Source of the DNA: a virus
Length of the DNA: 21,915 bases
IMG/VR virus record: IMGVR_UViG_3300003886_000047
Span: 1-21,915 of that record
Strand: one strand, 5' to 3'
Shown piece after piece: positions 1 to 21,915 of this stretch (position 1 is its first letter; each line of letters starts with the position of its first letter). Below the pieces are notes generated by a model. It was not told the origin of the DNA and did no database searches. It worked only from the letters and a program-made list of their open reading frames with translations. The translations under genes were made by a program, and so were the position numbers.

Positions 1-157
1 ATTCGCGAAATTAATTTGAAAATAGAAAAAGAAAATAAAAAAACTATTCCAGATATAAAATTCAACACTATTTTTATGGTCGCGCTGAGAAGTTACATTA
101 ACTAACCCACGTAACTGACGAACGGTACATAACTAAAAGTAGTTAAACTATTACCCG
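1..157. repeat. Left terminal inverted repeat (ITR)
   Basis: Bases 1-91 are the exact reverse complement of 21825-21915. Bases 92-157 match 21759-21824 with 7 mismatches (at 92, 103, 107, 116, 132, 136 and 146). The outer part holds the palindromes TTCGCGAA (2-9) and AAATTAATTT (8-17), then a strand of almost only A and G with few pyrimidines (about 17-43). The inner part ends in a conserved ACTATTACCCG, with TAAACT (left) or TATACT (right) as a possible -10 element pointing into the element. The first gene begins 9 bases after the repeat. This fits a linear replicon end, but could also be an inverted repeat at which an assembly stopped. Confidence 0.93.
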
Positions 158-165
158 AGGACCGC

Positions 166-378
166 ATGAATAAAACCGAATACCTAGCTGAGATTGAGCG
201 ACTAGACGCAACCATTAAAGAAATTGGTGAGATCCTATTGAACGTGCTTAATAAGGTGCCCGTGGTCCCCAGCAAAGACGATACTATCGTGGTATTACTG
301 GCCGTAAGCAAATCCCGTCAGCAACTCAATGATGTTGCCGAGCAAATTAAGGTGCTCAAATCAAAGGTCGCCGATTGA
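166..378 (+). CDS. Small hypothetical protein, first gene of left operon
   Basis: A 70-aa acidic/basic, probably helical protein without Cys or a membrane segment. The pattern of Leu/Ile/Val at heptad-like spacing (residues 8-30 and 45-68) suggests a coiled coil or helical hairpin. The ATG lies 9 bases inside the left ITR and is preceded by GAGG at a suitable distance, so the transcript probably starts in or next to the repeat. Its TGA overlaps the next ATG (TGATG), showing translational coupling. No family is recognised and the function is unknown. Being the first gene inward from the end makes an early role likely, by inference only. Confidence 0.75.
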   Translation: MNKTEYLAEIERLDATIKEIGEILLNVLNKVPVVPSKDDTIVVLLAVSKSRQQLNDVAEQIKVLKSKVAD

Positions 379-731
379 TGTCCCCAGAGCAGGACCAGTT
401 GCTGGTTGCCTCCAATACTCCCGCTAAGCTCACGGCCGCTTTCGGCACCGAACAAGGTGCGAGTGACGGACTCCAAATACCCGCAGTGCTCGATGCCCTT
501 AAAAAGTCCCTGATTTACGACCTTAAAATGGTTGATGTGCTCCTTACAGCGGAGCTGGATGCCATTGATGGTCGCTGTAGTGGGTGTGACCGCGACCTGT
601 CCCTGCCCGACAGCACATGCCAAGATCATTGCGCAGAATGCTGCCCAGGATCAATCGGCATGGCTAGGCGTCATCTATCCTATGCCTATTTTGAGACTAT
701 AGAGGATGTACAAGTTTTTAACGAGGATTAA
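378..731 (+). CDS. Hypothetical protein with Cys-rich (possible zinc-binding) segment
   Basis: A 117-aa protein. The ATG at 378 is chosen over an upstream TTG because it overlaps the stop of the previous gene. The N-terminal half is an ordinary soluble sequence. Residues about 65-90 carry CSGC, then CQDHCAECC, a cluster of six Cys and one His that could bind zinc. It lies in the operon 166-1213 between a small helical protein and a GIY-YIG-type nuclease, with only 2 bases to the next gene. The family is not recognised. Zinc binding is inferred from residue spacing only. Confidence 0.72.
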   Translation: MSPEQDQLLVASNTPAKLTAAFGTEQGASDGLQIPAVLDALKKSLIYDLKMVDVLLTAELDAIDGRCSGCDRDLSLPDSTCQDHCAECCPGSIGMARRHLSYAYFETIEDVQVFNED

Positions 732-733
732 CG

Positions 734-1213
734 ATGCTCCATAAAACCATGCCGCATAGATTTTCCGAGCCCAACAACTTCGGCCACTGGGAGTTGCTCT
801 TTACCAAAAAACGCGACCTGTACCTACCCGACGAATTCTTCGGCTTCGTGTACGTGATCCGGGAATTATCCGGCGAATTTTACATAGGCAAAAAGCAATT
901 CCATCGCTACCACAAAGGCAAAACCCGGCCGCACTCGGAGTCAAGCTGGCGATCTTACAAGGGATCAAGCAAGCTGTTAAACCCACAAAAAGGCGACTTT
1001 AGAGCCATCCTTAGCTGCCATCAATCAAGGGGTGGCTTGGCCTATGCCGAATCCAAACTCCAGTTTCTCACCGATTGCATGATGCGCCCAGGCGAGTTTC
1101 TGAATCGGTATATCGCGGAGATAAAATTTAAAGTGGCCCCGCTGACGCCATTGGAAATCAAGCATTCAACCCGGCGCACCAAGCACCCGTTGGGCTTCTG
1201 GCCAACGCCTTAA
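734..1213 (+). CDS. GIY-YIG-like endonuclease
   Basis: A 159-aa protein with the GIY-YIG nuclease signature. VYVI (residues 39-42) stands in for GIY, followed by FYIGKKQF (49-56), basic/His residues HRYHKGKTR (57-65), a SWRSYKGSSK block (71-80), and a Glu in AYAESKLQF (Glu106) at the place of the family's metal-binding Glu. Stand-alone GIY-YIG proteins of this size occur in phages as homing or DNA-repair-type nucleases. There is no obvious DNA-binding extension, so a free homing role is uncertain. A GAGG ribosome site precedes the ATG, and Met6 is an alternative start. It is the last gene of the left operon and is followed directly by a hairpin terminator. DNA is the expected substrate. Confidence 0.82.
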   Translation: MLHKTMPHRFSEPNNFGHWELLFTKKRDLYLPDEFFGFVYVIRELSGEFYIGKKQFHRYHKGKTRPHSESSWRSYKGSSKLLNPQKGDFRAILSCHQSRGGLAYAESKLQFLTDCMMRPGEFLNRYIAEIKFKVAPLTPLEIKHSTRRTKHPLGFWPTP

Positions 1214-1236
1214 AATGCCTTTATTTTAGGCACAAA

Positions 1237-1269
1237 AAAGGCGCTACCTAATTGCTAGGTTGCGCCTTT
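1237..1269. terminator. Bidirectional hairpin terminator
   Basis: The stem AAAGGCGC-T-ACCTA pairs with TAGGT-T-GCGCCTTT around a 5-base loop, with one T-T mismatch. On the minus strand it is followed by a run of six T, and on the plus strand by TTTAATTT. It ends the plus operon 166-1213 and also the minus-strand frame 1288-1516. A small hairpin (TGCCT/AGGCA, 1216-1232) sits just before it. The A-run plus GGC-GCTACC start resembles the terminators at 5835 and 6276. Confidence 0.75.
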
Positions 1270-1287
1270 AATTTGCTTATGTTGCGG

Positions 1288-1516
1288 CTAAAGAGCCATT
1301 AAGGTGCGTAAGTCGGCCACATCTAGGTAGGCTAAGCTGTTGTGGATATCAGGCGAAACTTGAAGCATAAAGTTGATTTGTGGACCCAAATCAAACTGCT
1401 TTAAAATATCCGGGTCCAGCAGCAAAAACAGGTTATCTGGCAACTGCCCAGCATCCCATTTTTGCTGATAAGCAGCCGAGAGCGCCTTGGTTTGCGGTAT
1501 CGTTATTAATGTTCAT
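1288..1516 (-). pseudogene. Frame-disrupted small CDS (about 75 aa if intact)
   Basis: A good ATG at 1516 follows an AAGGGGG ribosome site, but its frame ends after 27 codons. The +1 frame continues as convincing protein (QQKWDAGQLPDNLFLLLDPD and on to LRTLMAL) up to a TAG just before the terminator. That frame has no usable start of its own because a TGA overlaps the ATG. The span is 229 bases, so removing one base would give one reading frame. The shift lies within about the first ten codons. A near-consensus promoter at 1573-1601 drives it. Either the gene is genuinely broken or there is one inserted base in the sequence. The function is unknown. Confidence 0.6.
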
Positions 1517-1572
1517 AATATGCCCCCTTAAGGGAAGATAACCCGTCGCAGTATTACGAAAGGTTATATCAC

Positions 1573-1601
1573 ATCATAGAGGGTAAAAGGGGCTTTGTCA
1601 A
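1573..1601 (-). promoter_or_regulatory. Sigma70-type promoter, minus strand
   Basis: On the minus strand, TTGACA (1601-1596) is followed by a 17-base spacer and TATGAT (1578-1573), a near-consensus match. It begins one base after the stop codon of the 1603-1956 gene and would start transcription near 1567, about 50 bases upstream of the ATG at 1516. A palindrome, CCCTTAAGGG, overlaps the ribosome site in that leader. Confidence 0.75.
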
Positions 1602-1602
1602 A

Positions 1603-1956
1603 TCAATGGCCGTAATCCACTATCACGGCACGAGCCGCATCCAAGCAAAATTTTAAATTGTAAAAGGCGGCCAGAGGTTGCCGCTTACCCGCCACCAAAT
1701 AAACCCGTTGGCCCTTATCCATATACCACGCCATTTCAAGGCGCAAATCATCGTATTCGTCGGCGGCTAAAATATCCTTCGCGATTGCCCCAATCCTTGA
1801 TTTGTGCTGTTGCTCGTGGGACAGGCCCGATTGGGCGTAAAATTCATCATCCTCATCGGGCGTGATCGTCGTGTGCCAGATAAACGTGCTTTCGCCGTTT
1901 GCTGGGTCGTGCGCCACTAAGTGGTACCGCTTGTTTTTGAGATAGTTGCTTTTCAT
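1603..1956 (-). CDS. Hypothetical protein, 117 aa
   Basis: A soluble 117-aa protein. Basic N-terminus (MKSNYLKNKRYHLVAHDP), then an acidic middle (TPDEDDEFYAQSGLSHEQQHK) and a mixed alpha/beta-looking C-terminal half with MAWYMDKGQRVYLVAGKRQP. The frame is open further upstream to a TTG at 2049, but that start would lie upstream of the consensus promoter at 1988-2015, so the ATG at 1956 is chosen (GGAG 11 bases before it). It is probably a single-gene unit transcribed divergently from the ClpP-like gene. The family is not recognised. Confidence 0.75.
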   Translation of the reverse strand: MKSNYLKNKRYHLVAHDPANGESTFIWHTTITPDEDDEFYAQSGLSHEQQHKSRIGAIAKDILAADEYDDLRLEMAWYMDKGQRVYLVAGKRQPLAAFYNLKFCLDAARAVIVDYGH

Positions 1957-1987
1957 CTGCTGCTGCTCCGGTTTGGTTGTCCCGGGG

Positions 1988-2015
1988 ATTATACGAATCG
2001 CGATCCATTTGTCAA
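1988..2015 (-). promoter_or_regulatory. Consensus sigma70 promoter, minus strand
   Basis: TTGACA (2015-2010), a 16-base spacer and TATAAT (1993-1988) on the minus strand: both boxes are perfect. The expected start is near 1981, 25 bases before the ATG at 1956. Its -35 box overlaps the -35 box of the plus-strand promoter at 2009-2036. Confidence 0.85.
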
Positions 2016-2036
2016 GCCATTCCCGGCGACTATATG
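2009..2036 (+). promoter_or_regulatory. Sigma70-type promoter, plus strand, divergent
   Basis: TTGTCA (2009-2014), a 16-base spacer and TATATG (2031-2036). The expected start is near 2043, about 25 bases before the ATG at 2068. The two -35 boxes on opposite strands share five base pairs, so the two promoters can hardly be occupied by polymerase at the same time. Confidence 0.6.
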
Positions 2037-2067
2037 ACGGCAACAACAACTAAATGAGAGTCTAAAA

Positions 2068-2580
2068 ATGATCGAATTTGACGATGAAATAATAGTAGTG
2101 GATAGTAGTGTGTATTTACTTGAGAGGATGGAAGAAAGCGAGAAATATGAATTGGCGTGTGAGAATTTACGCAACAGCCCCGACATTGAGATTATCATTA
2201 ATTCCCCCGGTGGGGCTGTTAGCATTGCAATGATGCTCGTCGCGGCGATGAACGCCAATCAAAATCACAAACCACGGGCGCTGATCACGGGCCAATGCCA
2301 CTCATCAGCAAGCTTGGTGGCCCTGCTAGCCCCTGGTGGCTGCTGGGCAACAACTGGCAGTTATATGTGCTGCCACCAAGTCTATCTTGAGCTTAACGGG
2401 TCGCCGCAAAGCATCAACGTCGAAACGGCGTTTTACAAAAAGTGGTCAAAAAAGTTGATGAACACTGCCTATAAGGGTTTTTTAACTCCCGTAGAAATAC
2501 AGTCGCTACTAGATGGTGCTGAAATTTGGCTGGATCATGACGACATCAATAAGCGCCTGACTAAGAGGGACAAACGATGA
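2068..2580 (+). CDS. ClpP-like serine protease
   Basis: A 170-aa protein with the ClpP/crotonase fold layout. The INSPGG turn at residues 44-49 is the ClpP oxyanion-loop motif, followed by a helix. GQCHSSAS (75-82) is the nucleophile elbow, with Ser80 as the likely catalytic Ser. YMCCHQV (99-105) gives His103, 23 residues later, close to the ClpP spacing. An Asp in IWLDHDD (153-159) is the likely third residue. In phages such proteases usually mature the head near the capsid genes, but this one sits in the far left accessory arm, 18 kb from the coat gene. It could also be a protease acting on host proteins. It lacks a signal peptide. It overlaps the next gene by ATGA. Confidence 0.82.
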   Translation: MIEFDDEIIVVDSSVYLLERMEESEKYELACENLRNSPDIEIIINSPGGAVSIAMMLVAAMNANQNHKPRALITGQCHSSASLVALLAPGGCWATTGSYMCCHQVYLELNGSPQSINVETAFYKKWSKKLMNTAYKGFLTPVEIQSLLDGAEIWLDHDDINKRLTKRDKR

Positions 2581-3071
2581 TTAACGATGATGTGGCTATT
2601 TTTACACTCGATGATTTCTTAAAATTGCCGGAGCACGAATATTCAATCCAGTCGCAAAAAGAGGTGAATGGCGAACTCGTGACCAAAGTTAATACCTCCT
2701 TTTATAATTACTCTTTTCTCGGCCAGCTTCTCCATAGCTTTGACGACATGCCATCGCTTTACACCGCAGTGGACAGCGTTTGCGCCGCGTGGCATAAGCA
2801 GGGGCTTTATCACCGCGAGTATGGCCCGGCGTATTACAACGGGGAAGAAATTTTATGGTATCTCGACGGAGAAGAGATAGAGCTGATGAGGGACCAAGAA
2901 GAAATTTTGGATGGTTTTGATTCGCTTAAAAATTGGATCGATTACATTAATTTGCCTAGGAATGTAGATGAAACCTATCAGCTGATTCATGATAATGAAT
3001 ATTTCTTTGAGCTGCTTACCGAGCCGACTGCCAAACAACTTCGGGTACATCAAATGGCTCATTTGCTATGA
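2577..3071 (+). CDS. Hypothetical protein with HREYGPA repeat motif
   Basis: A 164-aa acidic soluble protein. Residues 72-100 read WHKQGLYHREYGPAYYNG then EEILWYLDGEE, one copy of the W-x-x-x-G-x-x-HRE-x-GPA motif followed by a W-Y-x-x-G strand. This motif is common in phage and intracellular-bacterium proteins of unknown role and usually occurs in tandem. The rest has no recognisable motif. It is translationally coupled on both sides (ATGA overlaps) with the ClpP-like gene and the tiny membrane gene at 3068, so these four genes form one operon driven from 2009-2036. Confidence 0.72.
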   Translation: MINDDVAIFTLDDFLKLPEHEYSIQSQKEVNGELVTKVNTSFYNYSFLGQLLHSFDDMPSLYTAVDSVCAAWHKQGLYHREYGPAYYNGEEILWYLDGEEIELMRDQEEILDGFDSLKNWIDYINLPRNVDETYQLIHDNEYFFELLTEPTAKQLRVHQMAHLL

Positions 3072-4722: not shown

Positions 4723-4974
4723 TTACTTAGCTTTGGATGCTTCTTTCTTTTTCAATAAAATTTGCAGACGAGATTCTTTTTCAGGCATGAGTCCAGTGGA
4801 CACATTTTTGCGTGCCATCAATTCTTGATAACGAGATTCTTGAGCGGGATTGCGCCCAGTGGCCACTGTTTCGCCACAAGACTCGGCTGTAGGTGTTTTA
4901 AAACTCACGCTGATGCTTGCGTCAAAACAGCCTGTAAGTTGTAAGACGAGGGCTATGGTTGCTAGTGTTTTCAT
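4723..4974 (-). CDS. Small lipoprotein with ejection-protein-like motif
   Basis: An 83-aa protein. MKTLATIALVLQLTGC is a lipoprotein signal with lipobox LTGC, so Cys16 would be lipidated and the mature 68 residues membrane-attached. After a Ser/Thr-rich stretch come two charged helical units, QESRYQELMARK and MPEKESRLQILLKKKEASK. The second closely resembles the duplicated N-terminal motif (SPEKEARIKFLEQKKA) of the 697-aa ejection protein. The DNA of the two stretches is similar too (4738-4788 against 9351-9403). GGAG lies 8 bases before the ATG. The shared motif suggests a common partner, perhaps in DNA entry or in blocking superinfecting phage, but that is inference. Confidence 0.78.
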   Translation of the reverse strand: MKTLATIALVLQLTGCFDASISVSFKTPTAESCGETVATGRNPAQESRYQELMARKNVSTGLMPEKESRLQILLKKKEASKAK

Positions 4975-5532: not shown

Positions 5533-5817
5533 ATGTCTATTAAAACTTCTGTATTTGAATATGAATTTGACGGTGGCACTGTATCACTGGATTTTTATGA
5601 TAAAGAAACTGGTTGCGTTGGCCGCGTTGAATGGCAGTTCCATACCAACAAAACCACCAACCGGTGTGCTTTTAAGCCATTCCACGAACGGCCCGCGTGG
5701 CTTGCTAGCGGATACGCATCATTTAGCGATCTATCCGCTAGCGACCAAAAAAAGGTTATTGACGCGCGCGGTAGGTTCGTGCGTAAGTTTATCAAAACCG
5801 GCATAACTTTCGTATAA
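5533..5817 (+). CDS. Hypothetical protein of cassette A (94 aa)
   Basis: A 94-aa soluble protein. The N-terminal third looks beta-rich (SVFEYEFDGGTVSLDFYDKE), with a middle CAFKPFHERPAW and a C-terminal helix, SASDQKKVIDARGRFVRKF. Near Gly-aromatic residues it resembles KTSC/small beta proteins only loosely, so no family is claimed. It forms a one-gene cassette with its own leader and a strong terminator 12 bases after the TAA, a layout typical of phage accessory (moron-type) genes. Such genes often act against the host or other phages, but no such function is shown by the sequence. Confidence 0.7.
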   Translation: MSIKTSVFEYEFDGGTVSLDFYDKETGCVGRVEWQFHTNKTTNRCAFKPFHERPAWLASGYASFSDLSASDQKKVIDARGRFVRKFIKTGITFV

Positions 5818-5827
5818 TAACCAAGGC

Positions 5828-5871
5828 AAAAAAAGGCCGCTACCATTCCCGGTAGCGGCCTTTTTTTTTTT
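5828..5871 (+). terminator. Intrinsic terminator of cassette A
   Basis: Perfect 10-bp stem GGCCGCTACC/GGTAGCGGCC, loop ATTCCC, preceded by seven A and followed by eleven T. The preceding AATAACCAAGGC is repeated before the cassette B terminator. Confidence 0.95.
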
Positions 5872-5969: not shown

Positions 5970-6257
5970 ATGAATACTAAATCAAAGAAAATCACAGAAG
6001 ATCACCCCGCACTATTCCGGCTGGTAGACACCATTTTCGAACTTTGGATGCATCAGGATAGCCATCGCAATGATTCACCTATATTTGCCGCACTGGTTGC
6101 GGAAATAGGAAATGAATCAGAATATTTGGATTGGCCATTGTATGGTGTTGTTGGTGAAGTCCTTAACTATGCATTCGCACATAAGGTACATGGTGTAATG
6201 GCCGAAAGTTTTTCTGGTCGGTTGGTAAGCGCCATTGTTTCGGCATCTATGGAATAA
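5970..6257 (+). CDS. Hypothetical protein of cassette B (95 aa)
   Basis: A 95-aa, mostly helical, acidic protein: basic start MNTKSKK, then HPALFRLVDTIFELWMHQD, SPIFAALVAEIGNESEYL, PLYGVVGEVLNYAFAHKVHG and a C-terminal SGRLVSAIVSASME. No family is recognised. It is not similar to the cassette A protein although leader and terminator match, so two unrelated genes use the same expression frame. The stop is followed by AATAACCAAGGC and the terminator. Confidence 0.7.
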   Translation: MNTKSKKITEDHPALFRLVDTIFELWMHQDSHRNDSPIFAALVAEIGNESEYLDWPLYGVVGEVLNYAFAHKVHGVMAESFSGRLVSAIVSASME

Positions 6258-6267
6258 TAACCAAGGC

Positions 6268-6307
6268 AAAAAAAAGGCCGCTACCAGTTGCTGGTAGCGG
6301 CCTTTTT
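6268..6307. terminator. Bidirectional terminator of cassette B and the minus gene
   Basis: Perfect 12-bp stem GGCCGCTACCAG/CTGGTAGCGGCC with a TTG loop, eight A before and five T after. It ends cassette B on the plus strand. On the minus strand the last codons and TAG of the frame 6281-6635 lie inside the stem, and the A-run supplies the T tract. Confidence 0.92.
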
Positions 6308-7457: not shown

Positions 7458-7490
7458 CGGCCAATGGCAACCGGTGGCCGCTATTGGCCG
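7458..7490. terminator. Inverted repeat between convergent genes
   Basis: CGGCCAAT (7458-7465) and ATTGGCCG (7483-7490) can pair across the junction of the 192-aa gene and the late operon. There is no T-run. It could weakly end both transcripts, and no better terminator is seen for the 14-kb late operon. The right arm lies inside the end of the 697-aa gene. Confidence 0.35.
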
Positions 7491-9574
7491 CCGGTGGCTT
7501 CTTCTTTCTCCGGGCCATCATCGAGCAAGCCTTCAGCTGTTAAGTGGCTCACGAGCTGCCCCAGCGCCTTTGGCGAATTATTGGCAGCAAAAGCACGCAC
7601 TAGTTTTCGTGCTTCTGGATTAACCAAAAAAGCGGCCTTGCGGGCGTCGTTGCTACCAATTGACTTAAAGTAATCTCGGGCCTTATCAATAAAGCCTTGC
7701 TTAAATGCTGGTGCTGCTTCCAGGCTTTTCAACGCCGTTGCATCCCCAAACAATTTCTCAATTTTTGCGGTTGCTTTGAGGGTTGCTGTGAGCATCTTAC
7801 CGTCGTTCACCATGCGTGGATCCATCTTATTGATTGCGGCATTGAATACCTTAAGATCGATATCATTAGCTCCCCTACGAGCCCCTGCTAGCGCATCAGC
7901 GACTGCCTGCGCCTGGACGTTGCGGAAAATCTGCGGATTAATCTCATCTAGTATTTTTTTGGCGTTAGTCAGACCAGTACCCGTTAATTTCGTTAATCTC
8001 CCGTAGATTTCTTCGGGTATCAACTCACCTTCGCTTTTACGCCCGATCAGTGCGCCAAGCGACGATTTACGGACCTGATTTAATTCGTCGCTCGCTACAG
8101 CATAATCTTGTCGGGTTGCCCTAATTTTTTGCGCTGCTTTTGGCACCACTCCGGTACCCAAAGCCGCCGTGTCGTCCAATATCTCAAGCACTTTGCGTTT
8201 GCCATTGTCGGCAAATGCTTTGCTTTGGCTGACGGTGCCTTTCTGGCCAAAAATATTTGTACGCGAGCCACTCCCGGTAAATGATACCAACATATCTGAT
8301 GCTTGAGTAGCGGTCATGTTATCGGGTAAATTTTCCTTAAATAACTTCACGGTCCTATGTTGCGCCCGGTTGCCAGCAATTTCCAAGGCACCCCCTAGCC
8401 GCTCAATTTCCTGATCAGCAAATTCTTTCAATTTTGTGGTTTTAAAAATCGGTTGGTTGCCGGTCATTTCCGCAATCTCACCAAAGGATTTCTGCCAGCG
8501 ATCATTGCGCACGCGCTTCATGTTGCCCACAGCTTGCGAGTAGCTGTTAACAATGTCGTTGCCGATGTTTAGCGCCCCGCCGCCGCCTTTGGCTTCCTGT
8601 GCGACCACTCGTTCAATTTGTGCGCTTTGTGCCGCTGCCAAATTATCCCGGGAAATTCTTCCCTTTGTGGTGCTATCGACTTGCCGAATGTATTCTTCGC
8701 CCGTGATTTTAGAGTCAACCAAGTTGCTTTTTGGTACGGAGATACCCGTGAGAGGATCACTTTCCAAGCCATCATTGAGCAATTTGATAGGATCTTTTTT
8801 AGCCTCAAATTTGAGGTTGTCTTTTAACCCACGCAGCCCTCTCCCGGCAACACTTACCACTGCTTGAGCAGCTGCCCCAGCACCAGCACCCGAAGCTATG
8901 TTCAACAAACGATCAGCCGAGCCACCATCAGTAAATTGGACAGCACCTGTAGCGCCACCAACACCTGAAGAGATCATTACCTGCTTGAGAGCAGTTTTAC
9001 CCGCCAATGAGATCCCGCCACCAAGTAGTAATTCAGGGCCGTATTGGCCTATGACTTGCCCAGCTCTACCTAGTACCGATTTACCAACTTCTGTTTGATC
9101 AAAAAACCGTCGTTCTTCGAGCGACAGAGCGGTGTAATCGGCCAATTCTTTGTCAGTGACAGCACCAAAGGTATTGCCTAGGGCCAGAGTGGCTTGCTTA
9201 ACGCCTTGCCCGCCACGCACCATGCCGCTCCCCACGCCAATTAAGACTTTTTCAGCGCCTGAAATAATCTCTTCATTCGACGGCAAGGGACCAGTTCGGG
9301 TCTTACCAATCGCCGATAAGAGACCAATAGGCGCTGTGGCTTCTGAGGCTGCTTTCTTTTGCTCTAAAAATTTAATACGAGCTTCTTTTTCGGGAGATAA
9401 CATTCTCGCCATTTCAGATGCTTGCGGGATCAGATTTTGCGGCGCTGGCACTTGCTCTGGAACTGCCATAGTCGGTCTTGCATCTTCAGCTATCGCGGCA
9501 ACTCCAAGTTGCTGTGAATCTGCTTTCTTTTGCTCTAAAAATTTAATGCGAGCTTCTTTTTCGGGAGATAACAT
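7481..9574 (-). CDS. Large DNA-ejection (internal virion) protein, P22 gp16/gp20-like
   Basis: A 697-aa protein, the last gene of the late operon, in the position of the P22 ejection genes. Residues 1-18 and 58-75 are an exact repeat, MLSPEKEARIKFLEQKKA. A Gly/Ala-rich, weakly hydrophobic region (about 108-250, e.g. VLIGVGSGMVRGG, LLLGGGISLAGKTA, SGAGAGAAAQAVV) could enter membranes. The remainder is charged helices. Such proteins leave the virion with the DNA and form a channel through the host envelope in P22-like phages. No lytic transglycosylase motif is seen. Start at 9574 by TAATG overlap with the upstream gene; Met58, at the second repeat, is a possible alternative start. Exact P22 counterpart unsure. 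Confidence 0.75.
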   Translation of the reverse strand: MLSPEKEARIKFLEQKKADSQQLGVAAIAEDARPTMAVPEQVPAPQNLIPQASEMARMLSPEKEARIKFLEQKKAASEATAPIGLLSAIGKTRTGPLPSNEEIISGAEKVLIGVGSGMVRGGQGVKQATLALGNTFGAVTDKELADYTALSLEERRFFDQTEVGKSVLGRAGQVIGQYGPELLLGGGISLAGKTALKQVMISSGVGGATGAVQFTDGGSADRLLNIASGAGAGAAAQAVVSVAGRGLRGLKDNLKFEAKKDPIKLLNDGLESDPLTGISVPKSNLVDSKITGEEYIRQVDSTTKGRISRDNLAAAQSAQIERVVAQEAKGGGGALNIGNDIVNSYSQAVGNMKRVRNDRWQKSFGEIAEMTGNQPIFKTTKLKEFADQEIERLGGALEIAGNRAQHRTVKLFKENLPDNMTATQASDMLVSFTGSGSRTNIFGQKGTVSQSKAFADNGKRKVLEILDDTAALGTGVVPKAAQKIRATRQDYAVASDELNQVRKSSLGALIGRKSEGELIPEEIYGRLTKLTGTGLTNAKKILDEINPQIFRNVQAQAVADALAGARRGANDIDLKVFNAAINKMDPRMVNDGKMLTATLKATAKIEKLFGDATALKSLEAAPAFKQGFIDKARDYFKSIGSNDARKAAFLVNPEARKLVRAFAANNSPKALGQLVSHLTAEGLLDDGPEKEEATGGQ
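9351..9403 (-). repeat. 53-bp direct repeat, copy 2 (codes residues 58-75)
   Basis: 52 of 53 bases match 9522-9574. It encodes the second copy of the SPEKEAR motif in the 697-aa protein and includes an ATG in the same place as the real start codon. Confidence 0.95.
9522..9574 (-). repeat. 53-bp direct repeat, copy 1 (codes residues 1-18)
   Basis: Covers the start codon and first 17 further codons of the 697-aa gene. A more diverged third relative lies in the lipoprotein gene (about 4738-4788). Confidence 0.95.
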
Positions 9575-10917
9575 TATTGCGCACCTCTTTCCGCGTACAA
9601 AGCGGCCAATTCATCTTCATCAGTTTTTGTATAACTGCCAGTAGCTTCCGTAGCTGCTGGGGCGGCCGGAGCTGCTGGGGTTGCCGTAGCATCCGTAGCT
9701 GCTGGGGTTGCCGGAGCATCCGTAGCGGCTGGGGTTGCTACATATTCTGGACTATACCCTGGCACATTGATTCCGAGTTCTTGAATCAATATAGCGTCTG
9801 CTTCCGACATCTCATACTCATATCCGACGATGGTATCATATTTCTTAAAATACGCTGATTGCGCATCACGATTCTTTAAGTTGTTTTTTGCCAAGTCATT
9901 CAACAGTTGAATTTTGCGAATGTTTTCTTCTAAAGGCAAACCTACATCGAAAGACGCCTTTAGCACTCTGGTCCCTTCTTTCTCGGTGAACGCAGCACCC
10001 ATGGTTGCTCTCAATGAGCTAAATACACTTTGTTCTATTCGTTGCTTAAGAGCGCGTAATTTTGAAGTGAGGAATTGATCAGGTAAAATATCATTAAGAA
10101 GTTCGCCAAGACGTGTTGTGTCAAAGCCACCCTCTTTAATCATTGCATTCAAATCCACGATGGCATCATCGTAATTCCGAATATTCATGATAGCTGGACC
10201 CCTTTCAATGTTTACCCACTTGTCGTCTCTAGCAGCGAATGTTTTGTTCATGCTTTTAGCATAAACATCTCCGCCACTCTGATCAATATTAACCAAACTC
10301 GCGCTAGGCATTGCCTGCCCGTCCACAAGCACTTCCCTCGTGCGTTGATTTATAGATACTAAGGTGGGCACACCGTCCATAAGCATTGTTTTCTGCACGA
10401 GAACATCAGGCTCAATAGCGCCCATGCTTACCCCAACAGCGCGTACCTTTTTGTTGTATTCTGTACGCCCCTCTATATTCAGATCCATATAAGCCCTACT
10501 GTGTGTAACATCAGCATTTGGATTAGCCGCAAGCTTGTCAGCGATTCGTTTTTTCATTACCGCATCCTGCTCCTCGATGGTTTTTCCTTCTAATTGATCG
10601 GTGACTATCGCGAAGTCCTGATAAAGCCGTTTCTCAGAAGCCACCTTGGCGTCTGCATCAGCACCCGCTTGATTGCGGTCTTCAGCAAGTCCTTTGATTG
10701 CGACGCCCTCTTCAGTAGCAGCTACTTTACGTTTCTCAAGATTATTTTTCTCCTGTGCTAATTGATTTTCAATCCCTTGTTGCGCTAAAACCCCAGCGGC
10801 TTTCTGTTGCGCAACGCCCTTCGCTTCAGCGGCCGCTTTCGACTCCTGAAAGTTTTTCACGGCCCCTTGCAAGTCAACCGGAGCAATTCTAAAATCTACT
10901 TGTGGTAATACAGCCAT
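9574..10917 (-). CDS. DNA-ejection (internal virion) protein, 447 aa
   Basis: The N-terminus MAVLPQVDFRIAPVDL is followed by a long Ala/Glu/Lys/Gln-rich helical region (about 20-90). The centre contains charged helices including LTSKLRALKQRIEQSVFSSL and GAAFTEKEGTRVLKASFDVG. The C-terminal 60 residues are a low-complexity Ala/Thr/Pro linker with repeated ATPAATDA units, ending in SYTKTDEDELAALYAERGAQ. The layout and position, between two other ejection proteins, fit the P22 gp7/gp20/gp16 group. Its TAA overlaps the next ATG (TAATG). Repetitive GC-rich DNA at 9650-9740 encodes the linker and may vary in length between relatives. An ATG start at 10917 has AGAGG before it. Confidence 0.72.
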   Translation of the reverse strand: MAVLPQVDFRIAPVDLQGAVKNFQESKAAAEAKGVAQQKAAGVLAQQGIENQLAQEKNNLEKRKVAATEEGVAIKGLAEDRNQAGADADAKVASEKRLYQDFAIVTDQLEGKTIEEQDAVMKKRIADKLAANPNADVTHSRAYMDLNIEGRTEYNKKVRAVGVSMGAIEPDVLVQKTMLMDGVPTLVSINQRTREVLVDGQAMPSASLVNIDQSGGDVYAKSMNKTFAARDDKWVNIERGPAIMNIRNYDDAIVDLNAMIKEGGFDTTRLGELLNDILPDQFLTSKLRALKQRIEQSVFSSLRATMGAAFTEKEGTRVLKASFDVGLPLEENIRKIQLLNDLAKNNLKNRDAQSAYFKKYDTIVGYEYEMSEADAILIQELGINVPGYSPEYVATPAATDAPATPAATDATATPAAPAAPAATEATGSYTKTDEDELAALYAERGAQ

Positions 10918-10961: not shown

Positions 10962-11564
10962 CTAACTGCCTAAATAGCTACCCAAAACACCACCACCCGC
11001 TCCAACTAGATTTCCAAGAGCAGATGTCTGATTTTGCGCAGCGCCTATAATGGAATTCGCTTGATTGGCTCCGGCACCAACAGTTGTTTGGGCGCGGCCA
11101 GCGGCATTATTCTCACCAAAACCAGCCAAAGAAGTACCGGCTGCCTGCGCCGAATCGCGAACATTGGTCAAGTTGTTAAAATTCTGTTGCGCATTTTGGG
11201 ATGCGAGCCCAGCGTTCATTTTTAAAATACTAGCCAGCCGAGTGCCGCCACCTACGCGCCCCGCTAATTCGTTTTCCAAACCTAAAAGTCCCTGCTGTTG
11301 CGCAAATTGCTGCGAGGGGCTATTGGCTTGAGTTGCTTGAGCCGCTGCTTGCGCTTCTGGGCCATTGGCACCAGTTAAATCTGCGGCTAAAGTGGCCGCA
11401 CCCGCACCTGACGCATTATAAGGATTCAAGATACTGCCCGTAATAGCCCCTTGTTCTTCCTGGATTGTATTCGCGGCATCAGCGGCTTCTTGTATCTTCT
11501 CGCCAGCTTTAAGCGATGCGTTTTTTGCCGTGCTACCTGTTAATGCCTTAAAAAAATCGCCCAT
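10962..11564 (-). CDS. Small DNA-transfer (ejection) protein, 200 aa
   Basis: A Gly/Ala/Gln/Asn-rich protein: MGDFFKALTGSTAKNASLKA, ITGSILNPYNASGAGAATLA, QQFAQQQGLLGLENELAG, NAQQNFNNLTNVRD, and a hydrophobic Gly-rich end, NLVGAGGGVLGSYLGS. This composition is typical of small DNA-transfer proteins in P22-like and related podoviruses (gp7 or gp14 position). It probably sits inside the virion and helps DNA cross the cell envelope. Its ATG overlaps the stop of the 80-aa gene (TGATG). A hairpin (GTAGC ... GCTAC, about 10953-10980) spans its end and the 45-base gap before the 447-aa gene. Confidence 0.75.
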   Translation of the reverse strand: MGDFFKALTGSTAKNASLKAGEKIQEAADAANTIQEEQGAITGSILNPYNASGAGAATLAADLTGANGPEAQAAAQATQANSPSQQFAQQQGLLGLENELAGRVGGGTRLASILKMNAGLASQNAQQNFNNLTNVRDSAQAAGTSLAGFGENNAAGRAQTTVGAGANQANSIIGAAQNQTSALGNLVGAGGGVLGSYLGS

Positions 11565-15010: not shown

Positions 15011-15496
15011 TTAAATTATAATTGCGCGACCTGATGACATAAAGTCATTCGCCGAGTTGTTTGTTATCGTTATGAGCCACTGCCCAGCCATCGTAATGGC
15101 CACCGTGGTCACCATGTTTCTTAAGTTGCCTCGCACTTCCGTCAACGTCTGCGCAACACCCCCTGAAGGCAATTGAGCACGCGCAGTAAGATGATATCCG
15201 ATGCCTAAATTGTCGGTAGCATCGTTGCGAACATCAGCCTGTAAATAAGCTCCAGTGGTGATGATGCTGGTATAGACAATTATTTGCTCGCCAATTAAGA
15301 CAGGCACATCAAACCAAGTTTCAGTACCTTCTACGTCTATCAGCGGCGGCGGGACCGGAGCGGTAACCATAGCCGCTATGTTATTCACGGTGTCCGTAAT
15401 TTCTTCCAGGTGCCTCACTGATCGTTCAGCCAGCCGCAAATCCTCAGACAGGTACTGATCGTCCCTACGTGGCGGAATGAGCCGCTCGATAGTCAT
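15011..15496 (-). CDS. Possible tail-needle or tail-tip protein (161 aa)
   Basis: The N-terminal 45 residues are charged and helical (RRDDQYLSEDLRLAERSVRH then LEEITDTVNNIAAMV), like a coiled coil. After a PVPPPL hinge, a beta-rich C-terminal domain (about 55-161) follows. It comes directly after the gp10-like gene (TAATG overlap), the place of the P22 tail needle gene 26, whose product is an N-terminally anchored coiled coil. Length is shorter than P22 gp26 (233 aa) and no sequence motif proves the match, so it could equally be another fibre cap. Confidence 0.6.
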   Translation of the reverse strand: MTIERLIPPRRDDQYLSEDLRLAERSVRHLEEITDTVNNIAAMVTAPVPPPLIDVEGTETWFDVPVLIGEQIIVYTSIITTGAYLQADVRNDATDNLGIGYHLTARAQLPSGGVAQTLTEVRGNLRNMVTTVAITMAGQWLITITNNSANDFMSSGRAIII

Positions 15497-16992
15497 TAAG
15501 TAATCCCAGGGGTGATATCGATATCAAGCCGTTGAATATCCGCAACACCCATTTCATCGCTCCGAAAATTAAATAGGATCGAATAAGGTACCCGGCCGAT
15601 ACGATAAAACTGAATTCGTTTTAAGTATTCTTCAAAATTGCCCATAGATACAGTCCCAGCATCTTTGTAAGTGTTTCCACCATCAATACTGAATGTCAGG
15701 GCCATCACTGGCCGCTCTTGTGGGTCGGCGTCTAAAGGCAGCTTGCGGCTAACGCCCGTGCCCCTTGATGCTGCCAATTCAACGCGCGAGATAAGAAATA
15801 CATTAGATTCATTGTAAACGTAATCCGTAGAAAATTCCCGCTTAATAGACACTCCAAATTCTTGTGTTGCGGACCTTGAAAGTATCCCTAAAATGCCATT
15901 CTCAGTCGTTTGGACCAGCGTGTTTCCTAAGCTGCTGACCACATCTGATATGATACTTACAGTCCTACCGGGGCTTTCAATGCGATGCCAGATATTTTGG
16001 CCACTCATTTTTGATGCCGTCGAATTGTAAACAAATGTCTCATTTGGGAATGACCAAGCAGCAAAAAAGTCGCCATCTTGTCCCCACGAATAAGCCACAA
16101 CAGCCGATAATTCTTCAATCGAATAACTTTGTATTGCCGAGTCAATCGCTTTATTACTGATTTTAATAGCAGTGCCGGAGCCACCAGCGTAAATAGCGGT
16201 ATTATCAAATGGGCCATTGCCAAGCCACATGAAAGTTTCTTCAATCAAAATGACGCTGAAACGGCTGCGCAGTCCCTTGTTTATGGTCGCACCGGGTACA
16301 CGGCGGTACGGGAAGGGGGTTGTGCCTACGTTGCTAAATTTATCGATGCTTTCGGTACTGAAAGCAACTAGCTCATCCTTCACGCGCATGACACGAACTA
16401 GCGGATCACTGGCCGAAAAAACATCCTCAAAAGCGAGCGGATCAAACGCCCTGCCTAAATCCAGGGCTGTTGTAGGATGAGGCGATCCCACAAACAACTC
16501 TCGGGCAGACGCATAGATAAATCTAGCATCCGCAAAACTCACTGATAAGATACCACCAGGGAACCTAGAAGCATTTTCCAAGTATGTAGCATCCGTAATT
16601 ATATTTAATTCATGTGTCGTTAAGTCCAAAAAGTAGCCGGTTAATCCTGGCGGTTGAATGACCATCGTTACGCCATTTTCAGCAAATGTGCAACGACCAG
16701 CACCCGCTATGTCGCCCAGCAACGTGAAGGTGTTTAAGCTATTCATGAAAAACAATTGATTGCCATTCACTAAATAGATGCTATCAGTTGATTTCACTTT
16801 AATGAAGCCCCTACCAACACCTGAACCGATATCCAGTGATGCTTCAATGCCCGGTGTGCGCCTCAAAGAAACTTGAGATAAGCCGCCTGGGAGCTCCAAA
16901 ATTGACTGACTGAGATTCGTGGACATCTTTTGGATTAACGATGTGTCCCCTTCTTCATATAAGCCACCAAGTGGCACATTTACTGTTTGCAT
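15496..16992 (-). CDS. P22 gp10-like tail plug (packaged-DNA stabilisation) protein
   Basis: A 498-aa protein, close to P22 gp10 (472 aa). Features of this family are the start MQTVNVPLGGLYEEGDTSL, the ELPGGLSQVSLRRTPGIEAS region, TFAENGVTMVIQPPG, FADARFIYASARELFVG and MRVKDELVAFSTESIDKFSN. The repeated W/FxG and beta-strand pattern suits its propeller-like tail hub. In P22, gp10 seals the portal after packaging and carries needle and spikes. The frame is open to 17073, but the ATG at 16992 is chosen since it fits the family's start and forms TAATG with the preceding gene. It sits before the possible needle gene, as in P22. Confidence 0.9.
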   Translation of the reverse strand: MQTVNVPLGGLYEEGDTSLIQKMSTNLSQSILELPGGLSQVSLRRTPGIEASLDIGSGVGRGFIKVKSTDSIYLVNGNQLFFMNSLNTFTLLGDIAGAGRCTFAENGVTMVIQPPGLTGYFLDLTTHELNIITDATYLENASRFPGGILSVSFADARFIYASARELFVGSPHPTTALDLGRAFDPLAFEDVFSASDPLVRVMRVKDELVAFSTESIDKFSNVGTTPFPYRRVPGATINKGLRSRFSVILIEETFMWLGNGPFDNTAIYAGGSGTAIKISNKAIDSAIQSYSIEELSAVVAYSWGQDGDFFAAWSFPNETFVYNSTASKMSGQNIWHRIESPGRTVSIISDVVSSLGNTLVQTTENGILGILSRSATQEFGVSIKREFSTDYVYNESNVFLISRVELAASRGTGVSRKLPLDADPQERPVMALTFSIDGGNTYKDAGTVSMGNFEEYLKRIQFYRIGRVPYSILFNFRSDEMGVADIQRLDIDITPGIT

Positions 16993-18077
16993 TAAAGAGC
17001 GACTCTTTCCATAACCAATGTTGCGTACAAGTTTTCGGACGGACCAAAGGCCGCCACATCTAATCCACCCCATTGAACGACCGCGTTGATGGTACTTACA
17101 TTCGAAAAACGCTGAATTGAATAACTATCACCACCGGGGGGGACGACAAATTGTCCATTAATGGTGGTTGTAGCCGAAGATTGAGCCCCATCGGCAGCCA
17201 AGCCGCCGGGGGTGCCTATATCAAAGTTTCGCCCGGTAGTCCCGAGTAATACTTGCGTGCCCGAAGTAACATTAAACAGTCGGACGGAATATATTAGTTG
17301 TGCGGTCCCAGCACCTGTTATACGCTCCATCATGACTCGTGTATCAAATTGGATGTTGTAAGTGCCCGGCTCAAGCGTAAAAGTATTATTGGCGGCCAAA
17401 ACACAGATTGATGCCGCATCTAGCTGCTTATCGTTCAGTGTTTGTGTTTCATACGAAAAGGCACCTTGTGGATCACCATTGCCACCATTAGCAGCTACAA
17501 CGTGACGAATAACTACACGATCAACTGGAATAATCACCCCAGGAAGCGGTACGAAAACTAAGGCATCCTCGGCCGGATTAACGATAGCCACACTGCCCGC
17601 AGCACCTACATAGTCAATAGGCGTATCCGTAAGCTGTAAGAAATTCTGATCAGGTGGTATCAAAGCCGCAGGCAAATCTAGCGCCCTCCAACGGCTATTG
17701 GCTATATCATAAGTCGCTACTTGGCCGTTAGTAGGCGCATCCAAAGTAAACCAATTAAGTAGCTCATTAGTGGTTGAGGTGCTTAAATCAAGCGGCGGAA
17801 TGACCAAAGGATCCTGGAACTCAAAAGCCGTTGCCAAGGCATTGACAGCCACTACTTGGCCGGGGGTGCCTATCATATTTGGAGTATCCGTAAGCTCCAA
17901 CAAAGTGGTACTAGAATCCGCACCACCTGTTATAATACCAGTAGTTTCACTATACGCTAAAAACTCATCCAGCGGCGCTAACCGCAAACGGGGACCATCA
18001 GCTACCAAAATTGAGTCGCCTGAGTCCAATTCAGCGGCTGTTATGTTTAGTAATTGCGAAGCATCTATTTCAGACAT
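16992..18077 (-). CDS. Tail-fibre protein with LTDTP repeats and C1q-like end (361 aa)
   Basis: The N-terminus MSEIDASQLLNITAAELDSG resembles MSEIEQRNLLRILPSDV of the next upstream gene. Two fibre repeats, LLELTDTPNMIGTPGQVVAV and FLQLTDTPIDYVGAAGSVAI (about residues 59-90 and 146-178), match the L-T-D-T-P-x-x-Y-G-x-x-G-x-V repeat common in phage fibres. The C-terminal 170 residues are beta-rich (TFTLEPGTYNIQFDTRVM, AQLIYSVRLFNVTSGTQVLL) and look like a C1q/TNF-type trimer head. ATG at 18077 is chosen over a GTG at 18086 because AAAGG lies 9 bases before it. It is inserted between gp4- and gp10-like genes, where P22 has none. Confidence 0.75.
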   Translation of the reverse strand: MSEIDASQLLNITAAELDSGDSILVADGPRLRLAPLDEFLAYSETTGIITGGADSSTTLLELTDTPNMIGTPGQVVAVNALATAFEFQDPLVIPPLDLSTSTTNELLNWFTLDAPTNGQVATYDIANSRWRALDLPAALIPPDQNFLQLTDTPIDYVGAAGSVAIVNPAEDALVFVPLPGVIIPVDRVVIRHVVAANGGNGDPQGAFSYETQTLNDKQLDAASICVLAANNTFTLEPGTYNIQFDTRVMMERITGAGTAQLIYSVRLFNVTSGTQVLLGTTGRNFDIGTPGGLAADGAQSSATTTINGQFVVPPGGDSYSIQRFSNVSTINAVVQWGGLDVAAFGPSENLYATLVMERVAL

Positions 18078-18142: not shown

Positions 18143-19225
18143 TCATGGACATGTATTAACGAACAACGTTGTGTAGCGACGCTCGTCGATGCTGTTCCCA
18201 TGTACGTAAAAATGTTCCAGTGTCGAATCAGCCGCAAGACCCGGCAAGTTTCCTTCGCCTATATTCAGACTAAATGGTAAGCCATCAGTATCGCGCAGTA
18301 CGGCCGTTGATAAATCATATGGTGTTGACATATCTGCTTGTAGCAACGTGCTGCCAAAGTTGTTAATATATAACCGTTCGCCAGAATTCGTCACAAGGAA
18401 ATCAGTTGGATCAGGTCCGCCGCCAATGAAGCTGAATAAATCTAAGGTGGTTGGGAAACCAATTCCCACCAAACTGTTCGGTGTGGGCAATGGAAAGGCA
18501 CGCAAAAAGCTGTTATCATCTAGCAGATAAAGCCAGTTTCCATCGTCCGAGAATTTCGCACGGATAGCGGAACTGGTTGTTGCGAAAGTTTCGTCCGGTG
18601 TCAGTGTTGATGAATCAAAAGCAGTGCTTAAAGTAAATCGCCGCACGGTGGAGTTTTCAACCAGAAGCATTATGGTGCCATCTACGGTTAAGCTTACGCC
18701 TTCTATTGTACCCGTGCCAAAAAATTCACCATTAGCGGCCAAAACGCCAGTGCTTAAGTCATTTGGTGTGCCCATTACCATTCGCCTAACCCTACCGGAT
18801 CCGCCACCAGCAAACGGTTCGACCGTATAATGGTTTACGCCATCAGGTGAAATATGTACACCGTCTGAGGTTGATTCAAAGCCGGTCGAGAATATATCGA
18901 CTTGCTCCGCCATAGAATCCAGGCAACCGAAGCCAAAAGGCACAAAAGGTGGCGCGCAGGCAACAGCAAAGGTGCTTGAAGCAACGAACATGCCTGTCAT
19001 TGTACACCATTGTAAGGTATCGCCAGACTGGATATCGGTACAGTCAACATCAGACAAGCCACATAAGGTGCTTGATCCGCCGCCGCCGCCGTCACCGCCA
19101 GAGGTAAATGCGGAGCTGCTTACAAGCCGCGAGCGGCCATTATGCACCACAGCAACCTCAGTCGCATTATCGGTTACATCACTGGGTAAAATCCGCAGTA
19201 AATTCCTTTGCTCAATTTCTGACAT
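18143..19225 (-). CDS. Tail protein with beta-propeller-like domain (360 aa)
   Basis: An N-terminal docking-like peptide MSEIEQRNLLRILPSDVTDN, then a flexible GGDGGGGGSS linker (43-52) and one LSDVD ... GDTLQW ... FVA fibre repeat with several Cys (55-101). Residues 110-350 carry repeated blade-like units: PNDLSTGVL, STAFDSSTL and PYDLSTAVL alternate with SDDGNWLYLLDD, NSGERLYINNF and SLTVDGTIMLLV, the pattern of phage-tail beta-propellers. Likely a surface-exposed host-binding protein. It overlaps the gp4-like gene by TAATG. The 65-base gap to the following gene holds only that gene's ribosome site. Confidence 0.75.
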   Translation of the reverse strand: MSEIEQRNLLRILPSDVTDNATEVAVVHNGRSRLVSSSAFTSGGDGGGGGSSTLCGLSDVDCTDIQSGDTLQWCTMTGMFVASSTFAVACAPPFVPFGFGCLDSMAEQVDIFSTGFESTSDGVHISPDGVNHYTVEPFAGGGSGRVRRMVMGTPNDLSTGVLAANGEFFGTGTIEGVSLTVDGTIMLLVENSTVRRFTLSTAFDSSTLTPDETFATTSSAIRAKFSDDGNWLYLLDDNSFLRAFPLPTPNSLVGIGFPTTLDLFSFIGGGPDPTDFLVTNSGERLYINNFGSTLLQADMSTPYDLSTAVLRDTDGLPFSLNIGEGNLPGLAADSTLEHFYVHGNSIDERRYTTLFVNTCP

Positions 19226-19746
19226 TAATGATTCTCCGAGTTTTTAGGGTCGCCTGTTAATATAATGTTGCCTTGCTCATCTGTTAAGGTATGCCCGCCA
19301 TCCGTTACGGCAATTCCTGGGTTTCTGCTGCCAGCGAATTTGCGGCCTCTGAAGCTGTGGAATTGACCATGGACGCCAGTACCTAATGGCATATTTGCTG
19401 GTGGCATGTTAACAGGTGGTCGCTGATTCGCCTTTAAGTGATTTTCGTAGGCTCGCTCCGCAAAGGCAATAATGGAATTACTTGGAGTTATGCCGAAACT
19501 TGAAGCAACTGATAGGGCCAAATGAGTCACGATTAGCTGCTCAGAAGCTATATCAAGACCGGTTTCATCAGCAGCCGATGTGACCAAATTGGCCCCTAAG
19601 TGGATGCCTTGAATGTCAAATTCAGCTACTATGCGGTTATAATGCCGCAACGCTAAAGCTACTTCATCAGCCGTCAAATCAGTTTCTGATGCGCGGACTT
19701 GAAGTGATTCTAAAGCGTCTTGGACGATAATTCTAGCTGTTGCCAT
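19225..19746 (-). CDS. P22 gp4-like head-to-tail adaptor
   Basis: A 173-aa protein, near P22 gp4 (166 aa). It shows the family layout: ARIIVQDALESLQVRASETD, LTADEVALALRHYNRIVAEF and an EQLIVTHLALSVASSFGITP ... IAFAERAYENHLKANQRP helix region, followed by a Pro/Asn loop and FHSFRGRKFAGSRN tail. In P22, gp4 binds the portal ring and forms the platform for gp10; a peptidoglycan-hydrolase activity has also been reported for it. No portal gene is present to pair with it. It overlaps the upstream 163-aa gene by 14 bases. Confidence 0.85.
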   Translation of the reverse strand: MATARIIVQDALESLQVRASETDLTADEVALALRHYNRIVAEFDIQGIHLGANLVTSAADETGLDIASEQLIVTHLALSVASSFGITPSNSIIAFAERAYENHLKANQRPPVNMPPANMPLGTGVHGQFHSFRGRKFAGSRNPGIAVTDGGHTLTDEQGNIILTGDPKNSENH

Positions 19747-20319: not shown

Positions 20320-21594
20320 TTAAGTACCGGAATACCTAACTATAAAATGAGGGTTTTGTACAAGTACACCCCAAAGTATATCTAGCCGGTATTCTTCAGC
20401 CATGTTGCTGAAAGTACTGGTTTTGGAAACAGTCAGATTAAGTCCCTTATAGGATTTAGTTGAGCTGTTAACCGCTTTACTTGTCGGATCTGAGAATTTG
20501 CCAAACGCTATAGAAACAGCATTTTCATGCATACTCATATTCTGAACTAAAACCTCATTTTCAACACCAACCATATTCATAGGTGCCAAATCAGCAGGCG
20601 CGGCGCTTACCGTCCTATTCGGACCACTAACTATCATGGCGGGAGAAATCGAAATTGCCATTTCACCGGCACCATCAGCAGTTATGTCACTCAGAACAAC
20701 AAATGTTTGCAGATCAGAAGTAGGCGTTTTGCTGGCTTTTCCCAATACACGGAATACACCGTCTATGGTAAAGCTACTACCAGCAGTTATGGTGGATACA
20801 CCAGCCGTCCAACCTGAAGTCAAAAGCGTCTGATTAGATACTTCATCCAGGTGAGCTGAAAGCATAACATCCTGCGCGGCACCATTAATAAGTGGTGTAG
20901 CAGCACCAGCATGTAAGCCATTGGTGTGGATCGGGGTACGGATCGACTTCATGATAGATTGCCCTGAAATTTCACCAACATATGCAGCCTGGATGGCATT
21001 TTTTGCGATACTGGTTACAAAGACAGTTGTTAAAGCTGAACCAAGATTACCTGAAACGCGGGGGCTAACGATAAACTTGCGCTTCATATACCCTGACGGA
21101 ATGCTCATTTCATCTTGAAATATGTCCAAATCTGACACATTTCCAACGGTGACAGGCCCAACAGATGGTGTTAATGGATTAACGAGGCTGTAAGTATTTT
21201 GGTACATAGTGGTTGCGATGTCGGTTTCAACATCATCCAAGAGCGTCTCACAAGCAGTTTCAACATAACCACGCAAATATTCTTCACGCACATTATGCGC
21301 CAATTCACGACGACTGATGGTGAAGGAAATATGTCTATGTCGGTTAAGAGTTAAACGTACGCTGCCTTGTTCTATGTCATTACGGAAGCCAGCAGGGGCA
21401 TCCAAATCGGCACCCTCACCAGACTGCATGTAAATGCTTTTCGGGATGCGAATTGAGTCGCCGCGTTCGTTGTTAAATGTATTGTTGTGGCGAATTTTTA
21501 TGCACTTGAGAATTGTGCTATCCGTCATGATCAGCGCGAGCGCTGTGTTGCCGATGTAATCGGTGGTTGAAAAAATATTTGGGCCAGTAGCCAT
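20320..21594 (-). CDS. Major capsid protein, P22 gp5-like (HK97 fold)
   Basis: A 424-aa protein, near P22 gp5 (430 aa). It starts MATGPNIFSTTDYIGNTALA, then shows the P22-coat-like block of basic and Arg/Ser residues (GDSIRIPKSIYMQSG, SVRLTLNRHRHISFTISRRE), a long helix VREEYLRGYVETACETLLDD, and Gly/Thr-rich beta regions that would include the inserted domain of P22 coat. The C-terminus AEEYRLDILWGVLVQNPHFI is the usual end strand. It is the first gene of the late operon, 164 bases inside the right ITR. P22 coat needs a scaffold protein and a portal, which are normally encoded just upstream; here the sequence ends instead. Confidence 0.88.
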   Translation of the reverse strand: MATGPNIFSTTDYIGNTALALIMTDSTILKCIKIRHNNTFNNERGDSIRIPKSIYMQSGEGADLDAPAGFRNDIEQGSVRLTLNRHRHISFTISRRELAHNVREEYLRGYVETACETLLDDVETDIATTMYQNTYSLVNPLTPSVGPVTVGNVSDLDIFQDEMSIPSGYMKRKFIVSPRVSGNLGSALTTVFVTSIAKNAIQAAYVGEISGQSIMKSIRTPIHTNGLHAGAATPLINGAAQDVMLSAHLDEVSNQTLLTSGWTAGVSTITAGSSFTIDGVFRVLGKASKTPTSDLQTFVVLSDITADGAGEMAISISPAMIVSGPNRTVSAAPADLAPMNMVGVENEVLVQNMSMHENAVSIAFGKFSDPTSKAVNSSTKSYKGLNLTVSKTSTFSNMAEEYRLDILWGVLVQNPHFIVRYSGT

Positions 21595-21758
21595 GATAAA
21601 TTAATCCTATAAAAAAGTTGTTTGTGTAAATCGGGTTTCTTTTTAAGGGGCTAATTCTTAACAAAAGGGGCCGTGAGGGTTTGCGTTCCTGTGGCTGCAA
21701 GCGAATTCTGTGGTGATATAGTCTCAAGGGCCGCGCTGCGCTTCTATTAATTACCGAG
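21595..21758 (-). promoter_or_regulatory. Leader of the late operon
   Basis: 164 bases between the coat start and the right ITR with no open frame. Near the gene the minus strand reads ATAGGATTAATTTATC before ATG, giving an AGGA ribosome site. TATACT inside the ITR (minus strand) is the best -10 candidate, but no good -35 box lies 16-18 bases before it, so late transcription may need another polymerase factor. The leader has no counterpart at the left end. Confidence 0.4.
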
Positions 21759-21915
21759 CGGGTAATAGTATAACTACTTCTAGCTATGTACCGTTCGTCG
21801 GTTACGTGTGTTTGTTAATGTAAGTTCTCAGCGCGACCATAAAAATAGTGTTGAATTTTATATCTGGAATAGTTTTTTTATTTTCTTTTTCTATTTTCAA
21901 ATTAATTTCGCGAAT
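21759..21915. repeat. Right terminal inverted repeat (ITR)
   Basis: This is the partner of the left repeat, with the outer 91 bases identical and the inner 66 bases about 89% identical. On the minus strand its inner edge reads TATACTATTACCCG toward the late operon, so the same candidate promoter element faces inward from both ends. The last 8 bases of the repeat (21759-21766) overlap a small inverted repeat, ATTACC-N5-GGTAAT (21750-21766), that has no counterpart at the left end. Confidence 0.93.

Follow-up and report, generated by a model that had tools for sequence, protein, structure and literature searches.

The stretch of DNA analysed in this work, 21,915 bp long and called here the window, is contig C6 of bin G000 (317 contigs), and its right half is a P22-type virion module carried on the minus strand in the order coat, gp4, gp10, gp7-like. 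Its features are listed by window position; C76 and C64 are two further contigs of the same bin.

1-91, plus strand: left contig end, 91 bases of a 124-bp exact core (k-1 overlap)
92-157, plus strand: diverged inner portion of left repeat arm; the operon at 166-3071 lies just downstream
2577-3071, plus strand: paralogue of two C64 genes, linking the window and C64 (48% over 95 aa, 3e-21)
7481-10917, minus strand: two large proteins, of 697 and 447 aa, where other ejection proteins would sit (position only)
10962-11564, minus strand: gp7-like DNA ejection protein (phrog_598, 1.5e-09)
15496-17073, minus strand: gp10-like packaged-DNA stabilisation protein / head closure (PF11134, 8.3e-10; phrog_578, 2e-73)
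19225-19746, minus strand: gp4-like tail accessory factor / head-tail adaptor (PF11650, 4.7e-07; phrog_637, 1.6e-17)
20320-21594, minus strand: P22-type coat protein (PF11651 P22_CoatProtein, 1.5e-24; phrog_283, 2.4e-43)
21759-21824, minus strand: diverged inner portion of right repeat arm, preceding the coat gene
21825-21915, minus strand: right contig end, the same 91 bases inverted, where C76 most likely joins (orientation from relatives)

The initial annotation had placed the coat, gp4-like, gp10-like and ejection genes in P22 order, and the matches to PF11651, PF11650, PF11134, phrog_578 and phrog_598 support this order. It had also reported that terminase, portal, scaffold and DNA polymerase are absent, and had called for profile searches to check it. 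These searches bear out the absence, with zero matches to any of the four among the scanned window ORFs, and comparison of the packaging and polymerase proteins of C76 and C64 with the window by tblastn gave no match, the sole weak one being that of the primase (E = 0.002). The 697- and 447-aa proteins (7481-10917) have no family match beyond weak PHROG ones. The 697-aa ejection-like protein has two copies of the motif LSPEKEARIKFLEQKKA at its N-terminus (window 9344-9409 and 9515-9580), and a stretch similar to LSPEKEARIKFLEQKKA at 4735-4800 lies at the C-terminus of an 83-aa lipoprotein-like ORF (4723-4974). Elsewhere in the window, a small ORF is bracketed by two near-identical terminator-like hairpins (5814-5865 and 6254-6307, the second with a z of -7.3), and a ClpP-like protease is encoded at 2068-2580 (PF00574, 1.1e-08; phrog_1827, 1.4e-26), apart from the head genes; with the P22-type coat of this phage, a head protease is presumably not needed.

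The two ends of the window, 1-157 and 21759-21915, form an inverted repeat that is 96% identical, with its outer 91 bases perfect. Two readings of this layout had been offered: a linear element, complete and bounded by terminal inverted repeats, which makes its own capsid and tail tip and takes portal, terminase and replication from a helper, or half a genome, whose other half should hold exactly the missing genes. The window alone, with its inverted ends and without those genes, agrees with the first reading. A search of the same bin for contigs ending in the 91-bp repeat, also proposed at that time, found two: the first 58 bases of the window end match perfectly at the terminus of C76 (6962-7019 of 7,019 bp), and they also terminate C64 with a perfect match (7829-7886 of 7,886 bp). 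The genes identified on these two contigs are the following.

C76, reading towards the repeat: TerS-like protein (phrog_309, 5.8e-08)
C76, reading towards the repeat: TerL (PF04466, Terminase_3, 1.9e-27)
C76, reading towards the repeat: P22 portal (PF16510, 9.5e-123)
C76, reading towards the repeat: scaffold (phrog_8865, 3.5e-28)
C64, reading away from the repeat: family-A DNA polymerase (DNA_pol_A, 9e-26)
C64, reading away from the repeat: DUF5906 primase/helicase (DUF5906, 1.4e-08; phrog_864, 3.8e-18)
C64, reading away from the repeat: SSB-like protein (phrog_1192, 2e-15)

C64 carries further genes besides these three, and all of them read away from the repeat. TerL, portal and polymerase, looked for in vain in the window, are thus present on C76 and C64, and the half-genome alternative holds: C76 brings TerS-TerL-portal-scaffold, the replication genes are on C64, and the repeat terminates both contigs. 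A second contig bearing terminase, portal and scaffold, joined to the window through the same inverted repeat by spanning reads, had been named in advance as evidence against a linear element; C76 is such a contig, with the join seen as contig overlap. Profile searches found one P22 portal gene and one Terminase_3 gene in the whole bin, both on C76, the latter being the TerL of this phage; a PF03237 terminase search of the bin returned nothing, because the terminase here belongs to PF04466.

How the contigs meet is seen from the extent of the shared bases. C76 and C64 share a suffix of exactly 91 bases, and the two window ends a prefix of exactly the same length; both matches together define a 124-bp exact core within an inverted repeat of about 486 bp. 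The rest of the arms lies outside the window, where C76 6633-7019 and C64 7502-7886 are 91.7% identical, so that the homology between the arms runs 387 bp past the window ends into C76 and C64. Conservation is higher in the middle of the repeat, about 240 bp with three differences, than in its flanks. The terminal repeat of the initial annotation is therefore real as a sequence, but it marks the end of a contig and not that of a replicon. A genome that is truly linear, with ends of the protein-primed or hairpin type, was also considered, and is ruled out by the continuation of the arms past the window ends.

The same figure recurs throughout, with 91 bases of a repeat at each end of every contig. 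At their other ends, C76 and C64 begin within a 29-bp tandem array; they have 90 bases of it in common, and each extends exactly 91 bases into it. The 91-base figure was measured before it was compared with the published k of the assembler: assembly 3300003886 was made with IDBA-UD, -maxk 92 (PMC6946796). We infer that the window comes from this assembly, since C76, from the same bin, is identical to one of its contigs (IMG/VR record IMGVR_UViG_3300003886_000369). As 91 is k-1 for IDBA-UD at k = 92, what looked like a 'terminal repeat' is a break left by de Bruijn assembly. Joined end to end, the three contigs give a circle of 36,522 bp, to which the array has to be added. For the array we estimate at least about 120 bp, since the assembler would have resolved a shorter one, and the closed genome measures at least about 36.6 kb. 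The array (C76 1-91; C64 1-91 on the opposite strand) has the polymerase gene on one side and the terminase region on the other, and further short repeat families follow it at C76 100-820; this region could be an origin or a packaging region.

We propose that the window is the middle contig of a single P22-like podovirus genome, circular in the assembly and broken at an internal inverted repeat, a reading to which, from the sequences compared here, we give a probability of about 0.97. IDBA-UD, with k up to 92, would have been unable to cross the 124-bp exact core, and would have cut the genome there, leaving 91 (k-1) shared bases on each end; the packaging genes would have remained on C76 and the replication genes on C64, both joined at the 29-bp array. 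The phage would be self-sufficient, as far as function can be predicted from the families: its genome encodes a terminase and a portal to package DNA, and a polymerase, a primase/helicase and an SSB to replicate it. The linear, helper-dependent element can be set aside almost with certainty: the very repeat that was taken for its terminus ends the contigs that carry exactly the missing genes, with TerS, TerL and portal on C76, the arms continue past the window ends, the identical stretch equals the assembler's k-1, and the three contigs close into a circle. Phages phi29 and PRD1 are linear, with inverted terminal repeats and protein-primed ends, and N15 has ends made by a protelomerase. The present phage recalls them in that its assembled sequence, too, ends in inverted repeats, but its repeat is internal to a circle and its polymerase belongs to family A.

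It could also be argued that two related phages or replicons share the repeat, and that C76 and C64 come from a different genome than the window, since binning had brought the contigs together and overlaps of 58 bases are, by themselves, insufficient to place them on one molecule. We consider this very improbable. The bin has a single portal and a single Terminase_3 gene, C76 and C64 supply what the window lacks without duplicating any function, and at the repeat core the contig graph has exactly two entries and two exits, and closes. Moreover, the window gene 2577-3071 is paralogous to C64 p122 (the 48% match given above) and to C64 p134 (40% over 50 aa, 9e-10), and these paralogues, on their sequence similarity, are an independent link between the two contigs. 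The proteins of this small family (window 2577-3071, C64 6616-6984 and C64 7010-7414) share a C-terminal VHQMAH followed by two hydrophobic residues, and are found in both genome halves.

From the contigs alone, the window could lie either way round between the arms. In all eight named relatives, whose records are of 36.3-40.5 kb, in agreement with the size of the closed genome, the scaffold gene directly precedes coat, with gaps of 6-29 bp, and this adjacency makes it most likely that C76 leads, by way of its arm, into the coat gene. In that orientation the gap between scaffold and coat is 712 bp. One arm then lies between scaffold and coat, and the other between the replication operon and a divergent operon of small genes. 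With the order of C76 and the window taken from their overlap and from the relatives, portal, scaffold, coat, gp4 and gp10 of P22 type follow each other in P22 order, and the genome has its own TerL. Circular closure of the contigs is compatible with headful packaging of circularly permuted DNA. No integrase or repressor family, as expected of a temperate phage, turned up in the ORFs scanned on the three contigs, and many small ORFs have no family.

The order TerL-portal-scaffold-coat-gp4-gp10-ejection is shared with Pseudoalteromonas phage vB_PspP-H6/1 (KX257490), Phage DSL-LC05 (OR003940) and Rhodoferax phage P26218 (NC_029061), P22-like podoviruses with records of 36-38 kb. The portal is 27-28% and gp10 25-28% identical to theirs over most of the length; protein identity stays below 30%, and only here does a 486-bp arm part scaffold from coat. 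Shewanella phage X14 (Bocovirus) and Vibrio phage 1.183.O have the same structural cassette and gave the best portal scores (about 30% identity, 2e-61 and 7e-63), but their annotated replication/recombination genes are of another kind, whereas the present phage has a family-A polymerase and a DUF5906 primase/helicase. A coat-protein search of viral_contigs returned no relatives, and a portal search of the same set returned C76's own record and distant relatives only; portal searches of genome_contigs and of the three other genomes of the genus found none, and the repeat arm had no match to phage records at the DNA level. The phage, whose DNA was sampled at a marine hydrothermal chimney, is a new yet ordinary P22-like podovirus. 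The genome with which it shares a bin is 2.18 Mb in size and 60% complete, binning alone being no proof of infection.

What could be the role of the inverted repeat? The internal 486-bp repeat is the only unusual item of this phage, and modestly so. An inverted repeat of at least 60 bp is absent from the eight relatives and from one partial IMG/VR relative, and we found nothing relevant in the literature on a comparable repeat in P22-like phages or on phage genome inversion. Both arms have the same orientation to the operon downstream, the coat operon in one case and the 166-3071 operon in the other, and a terminator-like hairpin is present 3΄ of scaffold, just before the arm (z -4.2). On balance we favour the view that the arms may be duplicated regulatory regions, which would restart transcription before the two operons and would be kept alike by selection or gene conversion. 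Sigma-70-like consensus sites near the arm are not above chance, so that the sequence itself lends a promoter no direct support; the two arms share no long open frame of similar length, and Rfam found nothing on the three contigs.

The repeat might instead be a duplicated element of another type, a replication origin or an operator. The AT-rich, palindrome-dense core folds far better than its shuffles (z -4.8) and is better conserved than its flanks, as would suit such an element, but the hairpin before the first arm and the shared orientation to both operons fit a restart of transcription better, and we regard an origin or operator as possible but less probable. It is doubtful, and in our opinion unlikely, that the repeat bounds an invertible segment, with recombination between the arms flipping the 21.7-kb structural half and both orientations existing. 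The inverted 486-bp arms with their 124-bp identical core would allow it, and each downstream operon would keep the same arm in front whichever the orientation, but no invertase was found among the scanned ORFs of the three contigs and the relatives do not have the repeat.

Our results remove a candidate new class, that of linear elements that make a capsid and lack packaging genes. They also provide a simple test for claims of this kind, in which the length of identical contig ends is compared with the assembler's k-1, and the same sample is searched for contigs sharing those ends. The internal inverted repeat of this phage would matter only if it were shown to invert or to drive transcription. 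If inversion were true, the same regulatory cassette would precede either operon in both orientations, and the structural half of the genome would be invertible.
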